Source: Candidatus Saccharimonadota bacterium
GTDB taxonomy: Bacteria > Patescibacteriota > Saccharimonadia > Saccharimonadales > Saccharimonadaceae
Reading direction: 5' to 3'
Assembly (NCBI GenBank): GCA_009778015.1
Contig: WRKS01000002.1
Coordinates: 1-16,530 of the forward strand
Length of the DNA: 16,530 nt
Shown here: piece by piece, positions 1,384 to 14,193 of the stretch
Position numbering within the stretch: position 1 is the stretch's first letter
Layout: each line of letters begins with the position of its first letter
The notes under the pieces: model-generated
Told to the model about the DNA's origin: nothing
Database searches by the model: none
The model's input: only the letters and a program-made list of their open reading frames with translations
Program-made: the position numbers and the translations under genes

Positions 1384-1396
1384 CCCCCACATACAT

Positions 1397-1474
1397 TTAG
1401 TAGCCTAATAGTATGGTGCGGTGGGAGGTCCAGTTGTTAGCGCTGGCAGTGCCATTAGTGAAAGCAAATACTCC
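1397..1474 (-). pseudogene. Truncated cassette ORF A-minus (C-terminal 25 codons)
   Basis: On the minus strand the frame reads GVFAF, a variable stretch, then SHRTILLGY and TAA. This matches the C-terminal part of the other cassette ORFs. Everything upstream of the GVFAF motif is missing, and the DNA switches at about 1475 into the oppositely oriented cassette. It is a remnant. Confidence 0.75.
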
Positions 1475-1475
1475 A

Positions 1476-1739
1476 GGCACCGCCATAGCTAACGGCAGAC
1501 TCGCTAATAACTCATTATTCTTCGGCGATAGTTTAGCAGAAACCTTATCAAATAGTGTTGATGGCGGCGCTTGGAATAGAGGGCGCGTGCGATCTACTGG
1601 CTCAACTCAGCCGTGGCTGATCCGCGGTGGTATAGTTGAAGGGGGCATTGCTGCTGGAGTATTTGCGTTTATAGCAGCGATTCAAGCCGGCGGCACCAGT
1701 AACATCTACTCCCACCGCACCATACTATTAGGCTACTAA
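1476..1739 (+). pseudogene. Cassette ORF A-plus, 5'-truncated
   Basis: This frame of 87 codons plus stop contains AIANGRLANN, SLFFGDSLAET, GGAWN, PWLIRGG, AAGVFAF and SHRTILLGY, in the order seen in the other cassettes. The QLGV segment at the 5' edge is missing, along with a few following codons. An upstream GTG/ATG-initiated extension across the junction would translate antisense of the other cassette and is not credible. There is no ribosome-binding site. It is probably a silent or dead donor cassette. Confidence 0.65.
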
Positions 1740-1763
1740 ATGTATGTGGGGGGTGAGGTTAGG

Positions 1764-1793
1764 TTGGCCTTTGGTCGCAATATGTGATATAAT
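1764..1793 (+). promoter_or_regulatory. Promoter of tRNA-Gln
   Basis: TTGGCC (1764-1769), an 18-bp spacer and an extended -10 TGA-TATAAT (1785-1793) lie just upstream of tRNA-Gln. The promoter sits immediately downstream of the right end of cassette unit A. Confidence 0.65.
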
Positions 1794-1803
1794 CAGTGTA
1801 GAT

Positions 1804-1878
1804 TGAGGCGTCGCCAAGCGGTAAGGCACCAGGTTTTGGTCCTGGCATTCCGGGGTTCGAATCCCTGCGCCTCAGCCA
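1804..1878 (+). tRNA. tRNA-Gln (anticodon TTG)
   Basis: The acceptor stem TGAGGCG/CGCCTCA pairs over 7 bp. The anticodon stem CCAGG/CCTGG flanks the loop TTTTGGT, giving anticodon TTG. The T loop is TTCGAAT, with discriminator G and an encoded CCA at 1876-1878. Acceptor, anticodon and T stems are intact. It has its own promoter and terminator, so it is an autonomous gene within the accessory stretch. Confidence 0.95.
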
Positions 1879-1892
1879 TCTGATACCACTTA

Positions 1893-1946
1893 GGCAATCT
1901 GCATCAAATATTTTGGAATCGTCCAAAATAACAGATTGCCTTTTTT
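1893..1946 (+). terminator. Rho-independent terminator after tRNA-Gln
   Basis: GGCAATCTG (1893-1901) pairs with CAGATTGCC (1932-1940), followed by TTTTTT. A second, inner stem TATTTTGGA/TCCAAAATA extends the hairpin. This is a classic intrinsic terminator. Confidence 0.88.
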
Positions 1947-1994
1947 ACTTGTGCTTAATTGAAAAAATCCCAAAACGCTAAAGAGAAAATCTAA

Positions 1995-3229
1995 TATGAC
2001 CATATCCGAACCCCCGACATTTAGACAACAACCCTTTACAAACCACTACTTTGTCTAAATTCAGCCTCCACTTGATCTGGGGTCCGGTTACACAGGTAAC
2101 GGTGAATGCGCTCAGTATTATAAAAGTTTATGTACTTACTTGTGGACGCACGTAGCTCCGCTTCGGAGCGATAGTTTGCGCGATACAGCTCTTCCTTTTT
2201 GAAGCTAGCGAAGAACGACTCAATCACGGCATTGTCGTAAGGCTTGCCGGCTTGCGAGAAAGACTGAGCTATGCTATTCTTCTTAAGCGTTTTGTGCATA
2301 CTGTAAGAAGTGTAAGCAGTGCCGCGGTCTGTATGAATTAACAAGTCAGTGGGTCGGCGGTCTTGATAGGCAGCCATAAACGCCGTCTTCACTAAATAGG
2401 TGCTGCTGTTCTTGCCGATGCTATGCGATACGACCTTACGCGAGAATAAATCAATAAAGACACAAATATGGAGCACGGTGTCCTTGAATCTATAGCAGGT
2501 TATATCACTGGCCCAGACTTTATTGGGTCTATCCACATCAAAGTTTTGTTTCAAGACATTGGTCTTCTTTGTAATTTGAGCCAGTGCGCGTCCATTCTTC
2601 TTGGCGTTAACACTGATACTGGACAAGCCCATCTCCCGCATAAGCTCCGAGACATATTTCAAGCTTATGGTGTACCCCGCATTTACTAAAACCGCTCTAA
2701 TTTTGCCGGCACCGTAGATTTGGTTGCTGTTGTCGTAAGCGGCTTGGACAGCGGCCATTAGAGTACTGCGCCTCTGGTTATACCAAGTCTTATCGCGCTT
2801 ATTGCGCCGGATGTGGTTGTAGAAAGTCCCGCGCGACACATCCAGCGCTTCGCAGAGAATATGGATATTGTATTGCCCATATAACGGCTCCAAGGCTTTG
2901 AGGCGATAACTCATAGGTGCTGTTGCCGTGCAATCCACGGATTTTAGCACACAGATCATATCCTCGTATTTTTTTAAGCGGCGCCTAGCCGAGTCCAGTT
3001 CTTTAGGTGTTGCAGTCCCACCCGTTTTTGCTACCTGCATCCTGTAAATCTTTGCCCAATAGTATAGAGTGCTACGTGGGATGCTTGATTCCCGGCAAAT
3101 CTTAGCGGCCGACTCTCCCGCTTGATATCGTCGTGCGAGTCTTTGCTTGCTATCTTCGCTGATTTTCTTATACATAATGTCCTTTACATTTTGATGGTTA
3201 TATTGTATAGCTTAGTGCTTGTATGACCA
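1995..3229 (-). mobile_element. IS3-family insertion sequence, ends approximate
   Basis: The transposase gene at 2036-3175 identifies the element. The exact ends are not certain. The 8-mer TATGACCA occurs at 1995-2002 and again at 3222-3229, about 1.2 kb apart, which is the usual size of an IS3 element. Two readings are possible: these are target duplications, or the ends are TG...CA with weak inverted repeats (TGACCATA versus TGGTCATA, 6 of 8 matching). No long terminal inverted repeat is visible, so the copy may be decayed. It lies between the tRNA-Gln terminator and cassette unit B. Confidence 0.5.
2036..3175 (-). CDS. IS3-family transposase (single fused ORF, DDE)
   Basis: This 379-residue transposase carries an N-terminal helix-turn-helix (residues 10-45, with SAAKICRESSIPRSTLYYW) and a coiled linker to about 80. 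A middle HTH_21-like segment follows (about 105-195, QIYGAGKIRAVL). The integrase core has D224 in WASDIT, D283 in HTDRGTAYTS and E319 in NAVIESFFASFKKEEL; D283 and E319 are separated by 35 residues, as in canonical DD(35)E enzymes. Many IS3 members need a -1 frameshift to join orfA and orfB, but here the frame is continuous. All catalytic residues are present and the gene looks intact. Start ATG at 3175. It is the only DNA-mobilising protein visible in the window, but nothing ties it to the cassette repeats next to it. Confidence 0.92.
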   Translation of the reverse strand: MYKKISEDSKQRLARRYQAGESAAKICRESSIPRSTLYYWAKIYRMQVAKTGGTATPKELDSARRRLKKYEDMICVLKSVDCTATAPMSYRLKALEPLYGQYNIHILCEALDVSRGTFYNHIRRNKRDKTWYNQRRSTLMAAVQAAYDNSNQIYGAGKIRAVLVNAGYTISLKYVSELMREMGLSSISVNAKKNGRALAQITKKTNVLKQNFDVDRPNKVWASDITCYRFKDTVLHICVFIDLFSRKVVSHSIGKNSSTYLVKTAFMAAYQDRRPTDLLIHTDRGTAYTSYSMHKTLKKNSIAQSFSQAGKPYDNAVIESFFASFKKEELYRANYRSEAELRASTSKYINFYNTERIHRYLCNRTPDQVEAEFRQSSGL

Positions 3230-3255
3230 AGCATAAGCGTTCCCCCCACATACAT

Positions 3256-3540
3256 TTAGTAGCCTAATAGTATGGTGCGGTGGCCGTAGAAAGCTTGAGT
3301 GTTGCCTGGGCTATTGCCAGCACTAAACATACCACTACGCACGCTCCCATCTGGAGAGGTCTGATGCGCACCATAAAGACTCCAAGGGCGAGTTACTCCA
3401 ACTAAGTGCATCCAATCTAGATTCCAGCCACCATTATCGCGAAGAGAGCTGGTTACTTCCGATGTGTTAGAACCGAAGAATTGAGACTTATTTGCTAGCC
3501 CGCCGTTAACTACTGCGAGACTATTGCTCACGCCGAGTTG
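3256..3540 (-). CDS. Cassette ORF B-minus (lectin/FGE-like C-terminal domain, silent?)
   Basis: From the CAA of QLGV the frame runs 94 codons to TAA. The order of motifs is QLGVSNS, NGGLANKSQFFGSNTSEVT, GGWN, RPWSLYG, SGMFSAG and HRTILLGY. The last serine of SHRTILLGY is replaced (YGHRTILLGY), the only variation seen near the 3' end. The 5' edge lies in the central palindrome. In-frame reading continues upstream only into the antisense of the partner cassette, so no native N-terminus exists here. No Shine-Dalgarno or promoter is seen. The order of P-W, G-G, S-G-x-F-x-F and a final H/F-R motif resembles C-terminal parts of formylglycine-generating-enzyme/C-type-lectin-like domains; this fold call is inference. 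Confidence 0.6.
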   Translation of the reverse strand, partial: QLGVSNSLAVVNGGLANKSQFFGSNTSEVTSSLRDNGGWNLDWMHLVGVTRPWSLYGAHQTSPDGSVRSGMFSAGNSPGNTQAFYGHRTILLGY

Positions 3541-3555
3541 GCCAACTCGGCGTGA
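3528..3555. repeat. 28-bp perfect palindrome at the centre of unit B
   Basis: TCACGCCGAGTTGG (3528-3541) is followed directly by its exact complement CCAACTCGGCGTGA (3542-3555). Each arm encodes QLGV at the start of one of the two outward cassettes. It could extrude as a cruciform or be a recombination junction. Confidence 0.95.
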
Positions 3556-3818
3556 ATGCTGAGACTGCAATACCAAGCGGTGTGCTAGCTGGCAATATTC
3601 TTTTTTATGGGGCTTCCATAAATGAAACAATATCCTTTGCTGGTCTCAGCGGCGGGTGGGATAACGACCGCTCTTATTCTACTCGTCCAGCAGCTCCTTG
3701 GTCATACCGTGGTGCGCCTTCAAATTTCGCGGACTTTGCCGGTGTATTTGCATTTGGGGGCATCGCAGGCGTCGCCAACAATCAAGCCTCCCACCGCACC
3801 ATACTATTAGGCTACTAA
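3543..3818 (+). CDS. Cassette ORF B-plus (lectin/FGE-like C-terminal domain, silent?)
   Basis: The frame runs 91 codons from QLGV to TAA, with AIPSGVLAGNILFYGASINETIS, GGWDNDRS, APWSYRGAP, AGVFAFGG and SHRTILLGY. It is clearly homologous to the other cassettes in motif order, but its early segment (SGVLAGNILFYG) has diverged from the GGLANNSxFFG consensus. GTG within the CTCGGCGTG motif could in principle serve as a start, but the preceding bases offer no ribosome-binding site. It is separated from its partner only by the palindrome. Most likely a donor cassette rather than an expressed gene. Confidence 0.6.
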   Translation, partial: QLGVNAETAIPSGVLAGNILFYGASINETISFAGLSGGWDNDRSYSTRPAAPWSYRGAPSNFADFAGVFAFGGIAGVANNQASHRTILLGY

Positions 3819-3982
3819 ATGTATGTGGGGGTTAAGCATAGCTATGATCCAATACAAGTGGCCAGACAGTCATAACCCGGTTATTCGGGGGTTGGTGCAT
3901 CATCACACGATATGTTAGGATACCGGATAGTAATATAGTCGGAAGTTCTAATGTAAAACGAAGGGTATGTTTCTATCAAACG

Positions 3983-3999
3983 TGACGTCTGTTGCCATA
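3983..3999 (+). repeat. 17-bp dispersed repeat, copy 1
   Basis: TGACGTCTGTTGCCATA occurs here and again at 5598-5614. Read on the minus strand both give an ATG followed by GCAACAGACGTCA. The bases around the two copies differ. The copy lies in the loop of the TTCTATCAAA/TTTGATAGAA inverted repeat. Confidence 0.8.
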
Positions 4000-4028
4000 T
4001 TAAGACTACACCTTTGATAGAAGCTCAA

Positions 4029-4080
4029 ACCGCCAGAAAACCCCTACCGCCAGAAAACCCCTATAAATAGGGGTTTTCTG
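4029..4080. terminator. Tandem 17-bp repeat and bidirectional terminator-like hairpin
   Basis: ACCGCCAGAAAACCCCT is repeated exactly in tandem (4029-4045 and 4046-4062). The second copy runs into CAGAAAACCCCTAT (4051-4064), which pairs perfectly with ATAGGGGTTTTCTG (4067-4080) across 2 nt. The CCCCTAT stem flanked by AAAA on one side and TTTT on the other fits a terminator usable in both directions. Confidence 0.6.
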
Positions 4081-4247
4081 CTGTCCAGGGATCATAAGCA
4101 GGGCTTTTAACGGCTCTTTGATGGCTCTGCTCCGGGCATTTTGGAGCTTTGATATGCCCCGATGCACCAACCCAGAGTTTTCTATAAAACCACTATAGCA
4201 ATTTTGATATTTCGTGTGATGATGCACCAGTGCTACCCCACATACAT

Positions 4248-4529
4248 TTAGTAGCCTAATAGTATGGTGCGGTGGGAGCGTTGCGGGTTAGGAGCTGCGT
4301 CTTGGCGAGCAAAAGCAAATATCCCGCTGTTATAATCATTATCGCCAGAGATCCCACCACGATTATGCCACGGCATGGTAGAATTCATAGTGCTAGCTCG
4401 GTTATTGTTCCAGCCACCTTGTATTAGTGCCGGGTACGAGGTGACTTCGGCTGTCGCCGAACCGAGGAATCTAGAATTATTAGCTAAGCTGCCTCCCCAT
4501 ATGGCACCAAGGTCATCCACGCCGAGTTG
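4248..4529 (-). CDS. Cassette ORF C-minus (lectin/FGE-like C-terminal domain, silent?)
   Basis: The frame runs 93 codons from QLGV to TAA. It reads DDLGAIWGGSLANNSRFLGSATAE, then GGWNNNRAS, MPWHNRGG, NSGIFAF and SHRTILLGY. The WHNRGG and SGIFAF blocks are the closest in this window to the RGG...GxFA pattern of formylglycine-generating-enzyme-like C-termini, where a tryptophan/arginine core packs the fold. No ribosome-binding site or promoter; the 5' edge is the palindrome. SLANNSRFLG is shared with C-plus, so the two may be closer relatives than other pairs. Confidence 0.6.
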   Translation of the reverse strand, partial: QLGVDDLGAIWGGSLANNSRFLGSATAEVTSYPALIQGGWNNNRASTMNSTMPWHNRGGISGDNDYNSGIFAFARQDAAPNPQRSHRTILLGY

Positions 4530-4543
4530 GCCAACTCGGCGTG
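4518..4543. repeat. 26-bp perfect palindrome at the centre of unit C
   Basis: CACGCCGAGTTGG (4518-4530) is followed by its exact complement CCAACTCGGCGTG (4531-4543). It is equivalent to the palindrome of unit B but one base pair shorter on each side. Confidence 0.95.
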
Positions 4544-4810
4544 AACGACGTAAGTGCGATCAGAAATGGCGGCTTAGCCAATAACTCTCGGTTTCTGGGT
4601 GATGCCGTATCAGAAACTATCGCCATAGACCATCAGAATGGCAGTTGGAATGGAGACGATAACTATACAGCTGTTTCAACTGCTCCATGGTTTAGATGGG
4701 GCTCTCAGTCGGGAGGTAATAGCGTTGTAGCAGGCTTGTGGGCTAAGATTGGAGCTAACGGTGATACGGCTAACCATCTCTCCCACCGCACCATACTATT
4801 AGGCTACTAA
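4532..4810 (+). CDS. Cassette ORF C-plus (lectin/FGE-like C-terminal domain, silent?)
   Basis: The frame runs 92 codons from QLGV to TAA: NDVSAIRNGGLANNSRFLGDAVSETIA, GSWNGDDN, APWFRWGS, AGLWAKIG and SHRTILLGY. It is the most diverged in its second half: RGG is replaced by RWG, and the usual GIFAF by GLWAK. It keeps the invariant end at the DNA level. No start signal is present. GTG 4541 within the palindrome is the only nearby potential start and lacks a ribosome-binding site. Confidence 0.6.
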   Translation, partial: QLGVNDVSAIRNGGLANNSRFLGDAVSETIAIDHQNGSWNGDDNYTAVSTAPWFRWGSQSGGNSVVAGLWAKIGANGDTANHLSHRTILLGY

Positions 4811-4824
4811 ATGTATGTGGGGGG

Positions 4825-5205
4825 TTAGATGAAAAGAACTCGCAGCCCTGCAACGCTGGCGGCGATAAGAATAGCCGAAGCAACAATTAACACAATAACT
4901 TGATTAAGCTTTACAGCAGCAGCCTTTTTGGCACTAGGCCTAACCCTACTCTTACTGCACTTAATATCATCAATACCAATAATCTGGGAGATGATTATGG
5001 TTGGCAGTACAATAAAGACCAGAAGGGCTGTGCCAAGGCCGGTAGGCCCCCAATCCCCATGTTGATACAGAAGTATAATAGATATTACGGCAGCAACCGC
5101 TATTATCACCCGGGCCCCTAATACTATTTTCCATATCGCAAACTGATTTTTTTGGCTTGCGTACAGCAGTTCATCTGAGAACTTATCATTAGAAGGTCGC
5201 TCCAT
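4825..5205 (-). CDS. Small three-helix membrane protein, function unknown
   Basis: This 126-residue protein is not recognised. After a polar N-terminus (MERPSNDKFSDELLYASQKNQFAIWK) come three hydrophobic helices at about 30-48, 58-80 and 103-124. A basic, Lys/Ala-rich cytoplasmic-type loop (KCSKSRVRPSAKKAAAVK) lies between the second and third. ATG 5205 is preferred over an upstream ATG because TATAAT (5217-5212) sits only 6 nt before it, implying a leaderless mRNA; the longer frame would start upstream of the promoter, inside the cassette repeat. The gene is squeezed exactly between cassette ends: unit D begins 4 bp beyond its -10 box and unit C touches its stop codon. Confidence 0.65.
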   Translation of the reverse strand: MERPSNDKFSDELLYASQKNQFAIWKIVLGARVIIAVAAVISIILLYQHGDWGPTGLGTALLVFIVLPTIIISQIIGIDDIKCSKSRVRPSAKKAAAVKLNQVIVLIVASAILIAASVAGLRVLFI

Positions 5206-5211
5206 AAGAGT

Positions 5212-5217
5212 ATTATA
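5212..5217 (-). promoter_or_regulatory. -10 box, leaderless start of the membrane protein
   Basis: TATAAT on the minus strand lies 6 nt before ATG 5205. The -35 position falls inside the conserved cassette end of unit D and does not match consensus, so the cassette end forms the upstream promoter sequence. Confidence 0.6.
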
Positions 5218-5221
5218 GCAT

Positions 5222-5521
5222 CCCCACATACATTTAGTAGCCTAATAGTATGGTGCGGTGGGAGACAGTAACCTGGATGTTACCTGGAAAGCGAGCGAAG
5301 GCAAACATACCAGCACCATTACCAGCTGTAGCGCTTGGCGATTGTCCGCCAAACATAGCCCACGGGTTGGATGATTGGGGAGATTCGGCACGGTCTTCGT
5401 TCCAACCACCGTTGGCAGCTGTAGTGGACCCAAGAGTTTCTGCCGTATTGGAGCCAAAGAACTGAGATTTATTGGCTAAGCCACCAATAGGTATGGCGTT
5501 AATATCATTCACGCCGAGTTG
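5222..5521 (-). mobile_element. Cassette unit D: single half unit
   Basis: The 40-bp terminal repeat is at the left (from 5222) and the CAACTCGGCGTG motif at the right (5510-5521), with no partner cassette beyond. The DNA past 5521 is unrelated to the palindrome. It lies downstream of uvrB on the same strand, 118 bp after the uvrB stop. Confidence 0.8.
5234..5521 (-). CDS. Cassette ORF D (lectin/FGE-like C-terminal domain)
   Basis: The frame runs 95 codons from QLGV to TAA: NDINAIPIGGLANKSQFFGSNTAETLG, GGWNEDRAES, NPWAMFGG, GAGMFAFAR and SHRTILLGY. The N-terminal half matches the family consensus best. Unlike in units B and C, the frame stays open upstream to an ATG at 5617, adding about 32 codons (including LITLSLFPNHQFQLGV). 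This could be a remnant of a longer coding region, but the added part has no clear signal peptide and no ribosome-binding site, and its first ATG overlaps a dispersed 17-bp repeat. It is not in frame with uvrB. Whether it is expressed is unknown. Confidence 0.55.
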   Translation of the reverse strand, partial: QLGVNDINAIPIGGLANKSQFFGSNTAETLGSTTAANGGWNEDRAESPQSSNPWAMFGGQSPSATAGNGAGMFAFARFPGNIQVTVSHRTILLGY

Positions 5522-5597
5522 AAATTGATGGTTGGGGAATAAGGATAATGTGATAAGTGTAGTTGGTGCAAGGCAGCTTATATATCGTGTGATAACA

Positions 5598-5614
5598 TGA
5601 CGTCTGTTGCCATA
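5598..5614 (+). repeat. 17-bp dispersed repeat, copy 2
   Basis: TGACGTCTGTTGCCATA, identical to 3983-3999, sits between uvrB and half unit D. GTTGGTGCA and TCGTGTGAT, also found in the 3832-4235 region, lie close upstream (about 5568-5593), so the two regions share several short pieces. Confidence 0.8.
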
Positions 5615-5639: not shown

Positions 5640-7595
5640 TTACTCCGCCCCCTCCAACTCGCGGATTTGATCGCGCAACTTGCTGGCGTCCTCAAACCGA
5701 AGCTCGGCGGCGGCCATCTGCATCTGGCCGGTTAGCTCGTGGATCATTTCTTTAAGCTCGCTCTTCGGCACCTTGCGCAAATCAAGTTTGGTCGGTTCGT
5801 TCTTTTTCGGTGCCACAGCACGGAGACCCTCCGTGATATTCTTGCTAATCCCCTCCGGCGTAATCCCATGCTTATCATTGTATTCTTGCTGGACGGCGCG
5901 TCGCTTCTCGGTCTCCTGAATCGCCTTCGCCATACTATCGGTAATGTTATCGGCATACATAATCACCTTACCATTGAGGTGGCGCGCGGCGCGGCCAATC
6001 GTCTGAATCAGCGCCGACTCACTCCTTAAAAAGCCTTCTTTGTCAGCGTCCAGAATCGCAACCAGCGACACTTCCGGCAAGTCCAACCCCTCACGCAGCA
6101 AGTTAATCCCGACCAATACATCGTAAACGCCGGTCCGTAAGTCGCGCAAAATATCCGAGCGCTCCAGCGTGTTAACGTCCGAGTGTAAGTAGGCGGTTTT
6201 GATTTTCAGCTCTTGCAAATAAATACTCAAATCCTCGGCCATCTTTTTGGTTAGCGTAGTTACCAACACCCGCTCACCAGCTGCCACCCGCTTGTCCACC
6301 TCCTCTACCAAATCGTCCACTTGATTACGAATCGGACGGACAACAATCTCGGGGTCCAAGAGCCCGGTTGGCCGCACCACTTGCCGCACCGGCTCGGGCG
6401 AAACTCCCAGCTCAAACTCGCTTGGCGTCGCCGAGACAAAAATCACCTTGTTAATCTTTTGGTAAAACTCGTCAAATTTGAGCGGCCGGTTGTCAAGCGC
6501 CGACGGCAAACGAAACCCGTAATCCACCAGATTCTGCTTGCGCGCGCGGTCGCCGTTATACATGCCACGCACTTGCGGCATCGTCATGTGGCTCTCGTCC
6601 ACAAACAGCAAAAAATCCTCCGGGAAATAGTCTATCAGCGTGCTTGGCGGCACGCCTTCCTCGCGGCCCGATAGATGACGCGAGTAGTTTTCAATCCCCT
6701 TGACAAACCCAGTTTCCTCCAGCATCTCCAAGTCGTATTTAGTGCGCTGAGCAAGCCGCTCCGCCTCCAAATGGCGCCCATGCTTCAAAAAGTATTCATG
6801 GCGCTCTTTGAACTCGGCGCGGATCCGTTCGGTCGCGGTTTGGACCTTTTCTTTTGGCGTAGCATAGTGCGAATTAGGGAACAAAAACAGCTCATTATAT
6901 TCGCCGACCGTTTTGCCGGTTAGCGGGTCAATCAGTTTGAGCTTTTCAATCGTGTCAAAATTCAACTCCACCCGTATCGCCCGCTCCTCGCCCGCCGGGT
7001 AAATGTCAATCACATCGCCTTTAACGCGAAAAGTGCCACGCTTAAAGTCAATATCGTTTCGGTGATACAAGATATTTGTCAAGAATTTGACTAACCATTG
7101 CACCGGCCGCTCGTCGCCAACCTTTAAAAGGAGCGACATATCCTCGTAGTCGCTCGGGTCGCCGATGCCGTAGATACACGAGACAGACGCCACCACAATC
7201 ACATCCTCGCGCGTGAGCAAGGCGGCGGTTGCGGCGTGGCGCATTTTTTCTATCTCGTCGTTGATGGCGCTGTCTTTTTCTATATAGGTGTCGGAGGCCG
7301 CGATGTAGGCCTCGGGCTGGTAGTAGTCAAAGTAAGAGACAAAATAATGCACAGCGTTATTAGGGAAGAACTCCTTAAACTCGGCGAATAATTGCGCGGC
7401 CAGCGTTTTGTTGTGCGCCAAAACCAGCGTCGGGCGGCCGTAGTTTTTAATCACGTTAGCCATCGTAAAAGTTTTGCCCGAGCCAGTCACGCCCAGCAAA
7501 GTCTGCTCGCGGTAACGCTTGAGACCCTTGCCCAAAGCCTCAATCGCCTTCGGCTGATCACCGGCGGGCTGATAAGGGCTCATTAAATCAAACAT
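5640..7595 (-). CDS. uvrB: UvrABC excinuclease subunit B
   Basis: This is the damage-verifying helicase subunit of nucleotide excision repair, loaded by UvrA and recruiting UvrC. The 651-residue product has Walker A GVTGSGKT (about 35-42), a beta-hairpin region rich in Tyr ([13 protein letters not shown]) that inserts between DNA strands, a Walker B-type DESHMTMPQ, helicase motifs V/VI ([14 protein letters not shown] and QTIGRAAR), and a C-terminal UVR domain ([17 protein letters not shown]) that binds UvrC. Length is normal. ATG 7595 ([14 protein letters not shown]) is chosen because TATAAT (7608-7603) lies 7 nt before it, giving a leaderless message; an upstream ATG at 7625 would precede the promoter. 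It is a stand-alone gene; neither uvrA nor uvrC is in the window. Half cassette D follows on the same strand. Confidence 0.97.
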
Positions 7596-13840: not shown

Positions 13841-14142
13841 CCAACTCGGCGTGACGAATAATATGTCTATATCTAACGGTGGTCTCGCACAGAACACTCT
13901 GTTCTTTGGCTCAGGCACATCAGAACTAGTCAGCACCCCAACTGCCGATGTATTTGATCGCTTAGGCTGGAACGACGACCGCACTCGTTCTATCGTGGCA
14001 ACACAACCGTGGTGGTTGCGAGGCAGCGAGGCGGAATACGAGTCAGGCTCGGGTATTTTTGCTTTCCACGGTCAGACCGCACTAGCCTATTTCTTCGCCT
14101 CCCACCGCACCATACTATTAGGCTACTAAATGTATGTGGGGG
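13841..14142 (+). mobile_element. Cassette unit E: single half unit after prfB
   Basis: CCAACTCGGCGTGA (13841-13854) begins 4 bp after the prfB stop, and the 40-bp terminal repeat with its G run ends at 14142. There is no partner cassette or palindrome. It is located between convergent prfB and RNase J, about 8 kb from the other units, showing the family is dispersed. Confidence 0.85.
13842..14129 (+). CDS. Cassette ORF E (lectin/FGE-like C-terminal domain)
   Basis: The frame runs 95 codons from QLGV to TAA: TNNMSISNGGLAQNTLFFGSGTSELVS, LGWNDDRTRS, QPWWLRGSE, SGSGIFAFHG and SHRTILLGY. It is not in the prfB frame, so stop-codon readthrough would not produce a fusion. Possible starts (GTG 13812 inside prfB, GTG 13851) lack a ribosome-binding site. 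Transcription from the prfB operon could reach it. No signal peptide. Best seen as a silent or orphan C-terminal domain cassette. Confidence 0.6.
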   Translation, partial: QLGVTNNMSISNGGLAQNTLFFGSGTSELVSTPTADVFDRLGWNDDRTRSIVATQPWWLRGSEAEYESGSGIFAFHGQTALAYFFASHRTILLGY

Positions 14143-14193
14143 CAAAAGCCCGCAAGTCCGAATCAACCAAGGGGGCTATGGGCTTTTGCCCCC
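14138..14193. repeat. 14-bp inverted repeat fused to the end of half unit E
   Basis: GGGGGCAAAAGCCC (14138-14151) is exactly complementary to GGGCTTTTGCCCCC (14180-14193), with a 28-nt loop. The first arm starts with the terminal G run of the cassette. On the minus strand a run of seven Ts precedes rather than follows the hairpin, so it is not a typical terminator for RNase J, but it may stop transcription between the convergent genes. Confidence 0.7.

Follow-up and report, generated by a model that had tools for sequence, protein, structure and literature searches.

The DNA stretch considered here (the window; 16,530 nucleotides) is the entire contig C2 of a metagenome-assembled genome (MAG) of a Candidatus Saccharimonadota bacterium (G000; 542,425 bases, 87 contigs, 71.9% complete) and contains eight copies of a short coding cassette that terminate in the same 39-bp DNA sequence, hereafter END. 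The genome holds a repertoire of such cassettes with the reading frame kept and the ends conserved as DNA, along with a gene on contig C25 in which a constant region is joined in frame to a cassette start, and cassettes that recur at a second site; in a sister species, one strictly orthologous site is empty. We propose that the cassettes probably form a silent archive that feeds an expression locus such as C25 by homologous gene conversion.

Cassettes in the window and across the genome

A cassette extends from a core, CAACTCGGCGTG, to END, which consists of the codons for HRTILLGY, the stop codon and 12 further bp. A preliminary description of the window, made from its letters, had placed eight copies in five units, and this arrangement is confirmed at each position. 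As it also stated, the outer ends are identical (8/8 are END with 0 mismatches), the 5′ edge CAACTCGGCGTG is common to all 6 copies that keep this edge, and the interiors have diverged by whole-codon indels and synonymous changes. The units are as follows.

1384..1753, both strands: unit 1, a degenerate head-to-head pair from which the central part, with the two cores, is gone
END at 1385-1423, minus strand: left part of unit 1, a cassette remnant (final ~26 codons) joined to the right cassette
~1478-1736, plus strand: right part of unit 1, a cassette without core, END at 1713-1751, fused to the left remnant
3259..3540, minus strand: left half of unit 2 (pair unit 3242-3831), complete silent cassette, 94 codons; END 3244-3282 (minus), exact
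3529..3554, unstranded: core/core palindrome of unit 2, perfect, 26 bp, CACGCCGAGTTGGCCAACTCGGCGTG, from two abutting cores
3543..3815, plus strand: right half of unit 2, complete silent cassette, 91 codons; END 3792-3830 (plus), exact
4251..4529, minus strand: left half of unit 3 (pair unit 4236-4824), complete silent cassette, 93 codons; END 4236-4274 (minus), exact
4518..4543, unstranded: core/core palindrome of unit 3, perfect, 26 bp
4532..4807, plus strand: right half of unit 3, complete silent cassette, 92 codons; END 4784-4822 (plus), exact
5237..5521, minus strand: unit 4, single complete silent cassette, 95 codons; END 5222-5260 (minus), exact
13842..14126, plus strand: unit 5, single complete silent cassette, 95 codons, 5 nt past the prfB stop codon
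14103..14141, plus strand: END of unit 5, exact, 39 bp comprising HRTILLGY-stop and 12 untranslated bp

Unit 1 starts immediately 3′ of the TAG stop codon of a YgjP-like metallopeptidase gene. Its right-hand cassette also occurs in a public protein (P0093, from a 6,211-bp contig), there with a 5′ part that reads MNEGTAIANG.

Eight is the size of the family within the window, not of the store, which comprises about 60 copies genome-wide. The search for the cassette edge and end across the genome that had been suggested at the outset yielded 60 END matches with at most 3 mismatches, 56 of them exact, and none for the reversed pattern used as a control. Furthermore, a 33-bp part of END (at most 3 mismatches) was found in one of 394 genomes of the family, G000 itself, and these two results rule out chance as the origin of END. 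Altogether, 29 of the 87 contigs were read, including 23 beyond the window that carry END matches.

A core lies at the right distance from 52 of the 60 ENDs and is missing there in the other 8. All 52 complete cassettes are in frame, with 88–98 codons; 51 are free of stops, and in the remaining one the last codon has become a stop through a variant END. Cassettes are either single or arranged head to head with abutting cores: 14 pairs are made up of two complete cassettes each, and a further 24 complete cassettes do not belong to such a pair, although some are probably pair halves that a contig end has separated from the partner. When gene context was judged with a simple open reading frame (ORF) caller, none of the 45 units lay inside a called gene, the largest overlap with the called end of a neighbour being 58 nt; 17 units separate codirectional genes, 7 convergent and 3 divergent ones; the remaining 18, at contig edges, have no called gene on one side. 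The flanks of the units are mostly unlike from site to site. Two short motifs occur at some units, namely GTGAGG 3′ of END (18/60) and CTCACC 5′ of the core (6/20 singles). A 51-nt stretch around END (window 14096-14146) could form a moderate hairpin (–9 kcal/mol as DNA, z –2.2), with the stop codon predicted to lie within the stem.

These cassettes have the traits of silent cassettes in that they are partial copies with kept frame, many per genome, without a promoter or ribosome-binding site as judged by eye, and their ends are conserved as DNA. The lack of a promoter and ribosome-binding site had been claimed in the preliminary description and stands at this level, with the qualification that the GTG that terminates the core may be called a start by a gene finder. 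Likewise, the statement that no copy is in frame with the preceding gene holds, by eye, for prfB upstream of unit 5, the one gene checked.

Selection on the cassettes

The 51 stop-free complete cassettes were aligned for codon statistics. Their own frame has no stop in 4,758 codons, whereas the two alternative forward frames give 209 and 376 stops and the three reverse frames 256, 156 and 266. At framework positions, the mean pairwise proportion of synonymous differences (pS) is 0.76 and that of nonsynonymous differences (pN) is 0.19, whereas at variable positions the respective values are 0.74 and 0.60; for the core and END, pS drops to 0.02 and 0.005. This pattern, together with identity that continues past the stop codon, implies that the interiors are old and diverged with a conserved framework, whereas the ends are kept identical as DNA. 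The consensus cassette start reads QLGVxxxxAIxxGxLANN, and 49 of the 51 have retained the core GTG.

A candidate expression locus

The closest relative of the cassettes outside G000 is the C-terminus of a 771-aa protein from G002, a genome of the same genus. Searched against G000, this protein matched the C25 gene with 60% identity over its residues 5-672. The C25 gene (4697-6852, 718 aa to the contig end) starts with a signal-peptide-like stretch (by eye), and its constant region runs in frame into a cassette start, ..VYSLT being followed by QLGANDRPSIANGALA, with QLG starting at 6803. The residues past the junction agree with the cassette consensus, and the match to the G002 protein stops 15 nt after the core's first base. 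The assembled product terminates in ...GGGLVYSLTQLGANDRPSIANGALA, the contig breaking 40 nt after the core CAACTCGGCG, so that the assembly covers the constant region and the initial 16 residues of the cassette. Several silent singles match C25 over 13–20 bp that always include the 10-bp core; the upstream share of these matches, located in the constant region, is 3–10 bp, and 8–10 bp in seven of them.

A long gene with a signal peptide and a constant region that reads into QLGV had been predicted, and C25 answers to it; for the predicted SHRTILLGY end, the in-frame cassette start is observed and the end itself would follow by extension from the first 16 residues. In both G000 and G002, the gene is preceded by what we take, from the reading frames, to be genes for a UvrD-like helicase and a YvcK-like protein. 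A second gene of the C25 type starts on contig C67 and runs off it. In homologues, the cassette segment is the tail of proteins of 600–772 aa.

The cassette domain and its relatives

In a profile comparison, the cassettes align with the C-terminal parts of seven relatives, P0003-P0006 and P0008-P0010 (probability 99.3, E 1.4e-20), and these C-termini in turn resemble template-repeat-like elements of G002. The cassettes match no family in Pfam or PDB sequence searches; the full protein gave a match to the FGE-sulfatase family below the Pfam cut-off, a PDB match with E 0.97 and nothing in NCBIfam. Judging from sequence, the cassette domain resembles the folds of formylglycine-generating enzymes and C-type lectins. 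Identity with a type IV pilin was considered and rejected, there being no pilin family match but merely this sub-threshold one.

The protein collection contains 120 matches to the G000 profile, those of G000 included. Further public cassette proteins end in HRTILLGY or HRTILSGY; the latter (e.g., P0029, P0036, P0047) come in groups of 4 to 8 from contigs of 41–165 kb, each group being taken as a single contig, and probably belong to a different, better assembled species that has this system too.

Recurrent cassettes and empty sites

Four cassettes are nearly identical at a second site:

C2 1639-1759 and the end of C9, 121/121
C11 2770-2901 and the start of C5, 99.2%
C39 1153-1289 and the start of C9, 97.8%
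C74 1112-1227 and the end of C49, 116/116

In 4/4 cases the readable edge of the match is at the cassette edge (8 and 5 nt beyond END, 3 nt beyond the core of the partner, and 1 nt before the core). The self-comparison behind these matches gave 13 rows, of which five were used, seven were 90–92% matches of 62–70 bp, mostly END, and one was a tandem repeat within C49. In addition, C5 and C74 have END and ~25 bp of flank beyond it in common, with different cassettes.

Among public proteins, the same or similar upstream peptides precede different cassettes:

P0057 and the unit at window 5237-5521: 17/20 flank residues the same, cassettes 24% identical by position
P0037 and P0071: upstream flank 8/8
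P0128 and P0134: upstream flank with a run of 8

The first of these comparisons is only suggestive because the flank beyond window position 5521 is partly repeated within the window. As for empty sites, no cassette follows prfB or the YgjP-like gene in the stretches read of G001, G002 and G003 (700 nt after the YgjP-like gene); one of these is an empty site in the strict sense, namely prfB in G002, where the same downstream sequence as in G000 is present without a cassette.

Near-identical cassettes in different contexts indicate copying between sites and, together with the C25 junction, support the earlier suggestion that the cassettes are a reservoir from which a surface protein draws alternative C-termini. 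That suggestion had named a recombinase or gene conversion as the agent of movement; no dedicated recombinase was found in a search for tyrosine recombinases.

Diversity-generating retroelements in relatives

Reverse-transcriptase (RT) matches are present in 8 of the 12 genomes searched (the second cassette-bearing genome, G112, not being one of the eight), and the relatives diversify the same domain by diversity-generating retroelements (DGRs), which transfer a template repeat (TR) to a variable repeat (VR) with mutation at adenines. TR/VR mismatches fall on template A in 18/18 cases in G079, 23/24 in G017, 9/12 in G200 and 16/16 in G006, i.e., in 66 of the 70 differences of these four pairs (RT, TR and VR loci L168 of G079, L166 of G017, L167 of G200 and L170 of G006). 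The four pairs were the positive controls; G014 and G208 also have TR-like elements, which were not included. Over 2,550 ordered pairs of G000 cassettes, by comparison, the share of mismatches at template A averages 25% (maximum 41%), with an A content of 23%, and the A ratio per template is 0.99–1.20. Because the share at template A is near the A content, unlike in the TR/VR pairs of the relatives, adenine mutagenesis is rejected as the maker of the G000 cassette differences.

Contig C38 of G000 (L188) carries an RT fragment at its start (3-449) and an A-rich TR-like sequence (1919-2125) with another target motif, ..LTVRCVAE, from which G000 probably also possesses an ordinary DGR. No TR for the cassette family was found in G000 (assembly 71.9% complete).

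A second store in another genus

A profile search of the 394 family genomes gave matches in 18, the own genome included. In many of these the matches are full-length genes or TR-like elements, whereas G112, a member of another genus, has many short ORFs. Its 5′ edge, CCTCTGGGTGGTCGGGGGC, is present in 83 dispersed copies with at most 2 mismatches, 51 of them exact; 55 distinct edges were examined, 49 with the 3′ edge GGTTTTCGTGGGG and 6 without. The bounded cassettes are all in frame (49/49); their 2,519 codons are free of stops, whereas the two alternative forward frames contain 54 and 153, and their interior pS is 0.66–0.67. Head-to-head pairs occur here as well, with divergent edges ~72 bp apart (e.g., on C2, C14, C30, C34 and C61 of G112); a scripted search for abutting edges within 40 nt found none.

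Mismatches in G112 are mildly enriched at template A (ratio 1.35–1.70 in the 11 listed of 49 templates), TR-like copies are unremarkable next to other templates, and synonymous sites are saturated. Adenine mutagenesis is not the sole source of the differences in G112 but may contribute there. Four A-rich copies among the G112 loci (L153-L165, L201-L230) extend past the 3′ edge with a common sequence that is TR-like or gene-end-like.

Mechanism and alternative explanations

We propose that the units are promoterless silent cassettes, each of which would code for the C-terminal ~90 residues of a single protein, secreted or on the surface; this stretch would be the variable part of the domain that relatives diversify by DGRs. 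This protein would be expressed from a locus such as C25, in which the constant region ends with YSLT just before the core CAACTCGGCG and the expressed allele would carry END on its far side. The near-invariant core and END would act as short homology arms; homologous recombination (gene conversion), presumably of the RecA type, would copy a silent cassette into the expression locus or from one silent site to another. Such an exchange at C25 would alter the binding face and preserve the frame and the framework. As the domain is lectin-like and cultured relatives are epibionts, the protein might bind ligands of a host, prey or phage.

Several observations weigh against this proposal. Contig C25 stops 40 nt past the core, which leaves END of the expressed allele out of view; the codon after QLG is GCT rather than GTG, and none of the other retrieved cassettes matches these 40 nt. 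The protein collection contains no full-length protein with a cassette tail (178 candidates, none with E ≤ 1e-3), and switching at the expression site was not observed in the material, which consists of assembled contigs without reads. The homology arms are short (10–20 bp and ~39–44 bp). For each of the four recurrent cassettes the other side of the match is a contig end, with one edge visible, and, all four recurrences being at contig ends, strain mixture or assembly is inseparable from duplication. Finally, the flank common to C5 and C74 is compatible with exchange and with a repeated flank.

A further-reaching reading, which we consider doubtful, is that a lineage of Saccharibacteria has turned a domain once mutagenised by a DGR into an archive. 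In place of random DGR variants, it would keep 60–100 selected lectin-like tails as dispersed silent cassettes and use templated exchange. END would then derive from, or be equivalent to, the 3′ recognition hairpin of a DGR target and serve as a landmark for copying, whether retro- or DNA-based, and the different end sequences of the two genera would suggest more than one origin.

Site-specific recombination of the shufflon or invertase type, in which the core and/or END would be recombinase sites and a dedicated enzyme would invert or insert cassettes, is unlikely. The core stands at the 5′ edge of each ORF as shufflon crossover sites do, cores meet as inverted repeats in the 14 pairs of complete cassettes, and CTCACC before the core and GTGAGG after END form an inverted repeat around some units. 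However, the cassettes are spread over 45 places and none was found beside a constant region (C25 ends within its cassette). Moreover, the search for tyrosine recombinases (PF00589) yielded one in the assembled G000, one apiece in three sister species and none in G112; serine recombinases were not searched, and the MAG is 72% complete. On the strength of this recombinase count we prefer homologous gene conversion over a dedicated recombinase with moderate confidence. Likeness to integron attC sites was also considered: some flanks look like R boxes (GTTRRRY), and 11/60 right flanks read GTGAGG..TTAG; no second integrase was found.

It is distinctly improbable that the cassettes are a selfish mobile element, MITE- or IS-like (i.e., akin to miniature inverted-repeat transposable elements or insertion sequences), that took up a gene 3′ end and spread, the coding content being incidental. 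Such an element would account for the pairs with END as terminal inverted repeats of 39–44 bp, the 45 intergenic places and the cassette-free prfB junction in G002, and there is an IS3 transposase within the window. Kept frames, saturated synonymous sites and a conserved framework are nevertheless unexpected for a passenger; singles have END on one side only, so that terminal inverted repeats are not on every copy, and a gene with the same junction exists (C25). In addition, the pair unit 3244-3830 has no match in phages or plasmids, and searches of viral contigs with the profile and with END gave no relative. No target-site duplication is evident by eye in the unit flanks, which were not tested systematically.

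That the cassettes are direct DGR output, i.e., adenine-mutagenised copies of a template repeat, is very unlikely: the same domain is a DGR target in relatives, C38 carries an RT fragment and a TR-like sequence, and G112 shows a mild enrichment at template A, but the G000 cassettes have no adenine signature, unlike the four true TR/VR pairs, the TR-like copies of G112 do not stand out from other templates, synonymous sites in that genome are saturated, and the TR-like sequence on C38 encodes a different motif. Hardly more credible, although it counts against the archive proposal, is a free-standing gene of ~90 aa starting at the core GTG of each cassette, for which speak the GTG in 49/51 cassettes, the 51/51 open ORFs and the listing of cassettes as proteins in public annotation, and against which stand the lack of a ribosome-binding stretch and a signal peptide (both by eye), the tail position of the segment in the long homologues and the mostly unlike flanks. 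A silent archive read out by gene conversion remains our preferred explanation.

Other features of the window

An IS3-family transposase gene (2036-3175, minus strand; NF033516 match above the cut-off) is located between units 1 and 2 and shows no sign of moving cassettes. A MITE-like stretch of ~340 bp (3893-4229) is edged by a 21-bp inverted repeat (95%); a similar sequence adjoins END at the edge of contig C72 (L101), and a 21-bp piece of the stretch (3979-3999) is repeated at 5594-5614 (95%). Between units 3 and 4, an ORF of 134 aa (4825-5229, minus strand) has long hydrophobic stretches (by eye) and no Pfam match.

Comparison with known systems

Silent-cassette variation is mainly known in animal pathogens that evade immunity. 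If the proposal is correct, it would also serve a bacterium with an estimated genome of ~0.6–0.7 Mb, and the cassettes would point to the variable binding molecule of such a bacterium. In addition, the sister lineages would offer a natural comparison of random (DGR) and archived (cassette) diversification of the same domain. Cultivated members of the group live on other microbes, and the means by which they identify and bind a host are described as largely unknown (PMC12206443). The titles and abstract beginnings that came up in searches of open-access literature mention no silent cassettes for Saccharibacteria or Patescibacteria, and no papers were found on gene conversion in Saccharibacteria or on shufflons in Patescibacteria.

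Neisseria pilE/pilS has up to 19 pilS copies at six loci and is RecA-dependent (PMC4534519); the G000 system likewise has promoterless silent partial copies with conserved sequence at several chromosomal loci that would feed one expressed surface protein. It differs in that the protein is not a pilin but has a lectin-like tail, in the ~60 copies at 45 places, in the head-to-head pairs with abutting cores, and in being known from sequence alone. The Borrelia vls cassettes have 17-bp direct repeats at both ends and form a contiguous array of 15 beside vlsE, with 90.0–96.1% DNA identity to the vlsE cassette region (PMC2632889). In the two systems alike, the cassettes are silent, cover the variable part alone and have repeats at either end, but those of G000 are dispersed and far more diverged. 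In Mycoplasma synoviae, a small genome contains one intact vlhA gene and ~70 promoterless copies, in tandem within one restricted region (PMC4534519), whereas the G000 copies are scattered between genes, single and paired.

With DGRs, the cassettes share a domain that relatives vary at the C-terminus of long proteins, and END may adopt a hairpin structure in which the stop codon is part of the stem; phage BPP-1 requires a hairpin beside the stop codon of the DGR target (PMC3240598). Unlike DGRs, G000 has no adenine signature and no TR was found for the cassette family in its assembly.

In the R64 pilV shufflon, alternative C-terminal ORFs lie behind a common short site. The cassettes resemble it in having such ORFs and a shared short site, and depart from it in their dispersal, with neither an adjacent constant gene (C25 ends within its cassette) nor a dedicated tyrosine recombinase found in the assembled part.

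By analogy, the working principle would be that of pilE/pilS, vlsE and vlhA. The protein, the genome-wide dispersal, the head-to-head pairs and the DGR diversification of the same domain in relatives set the G000 system apart from these.

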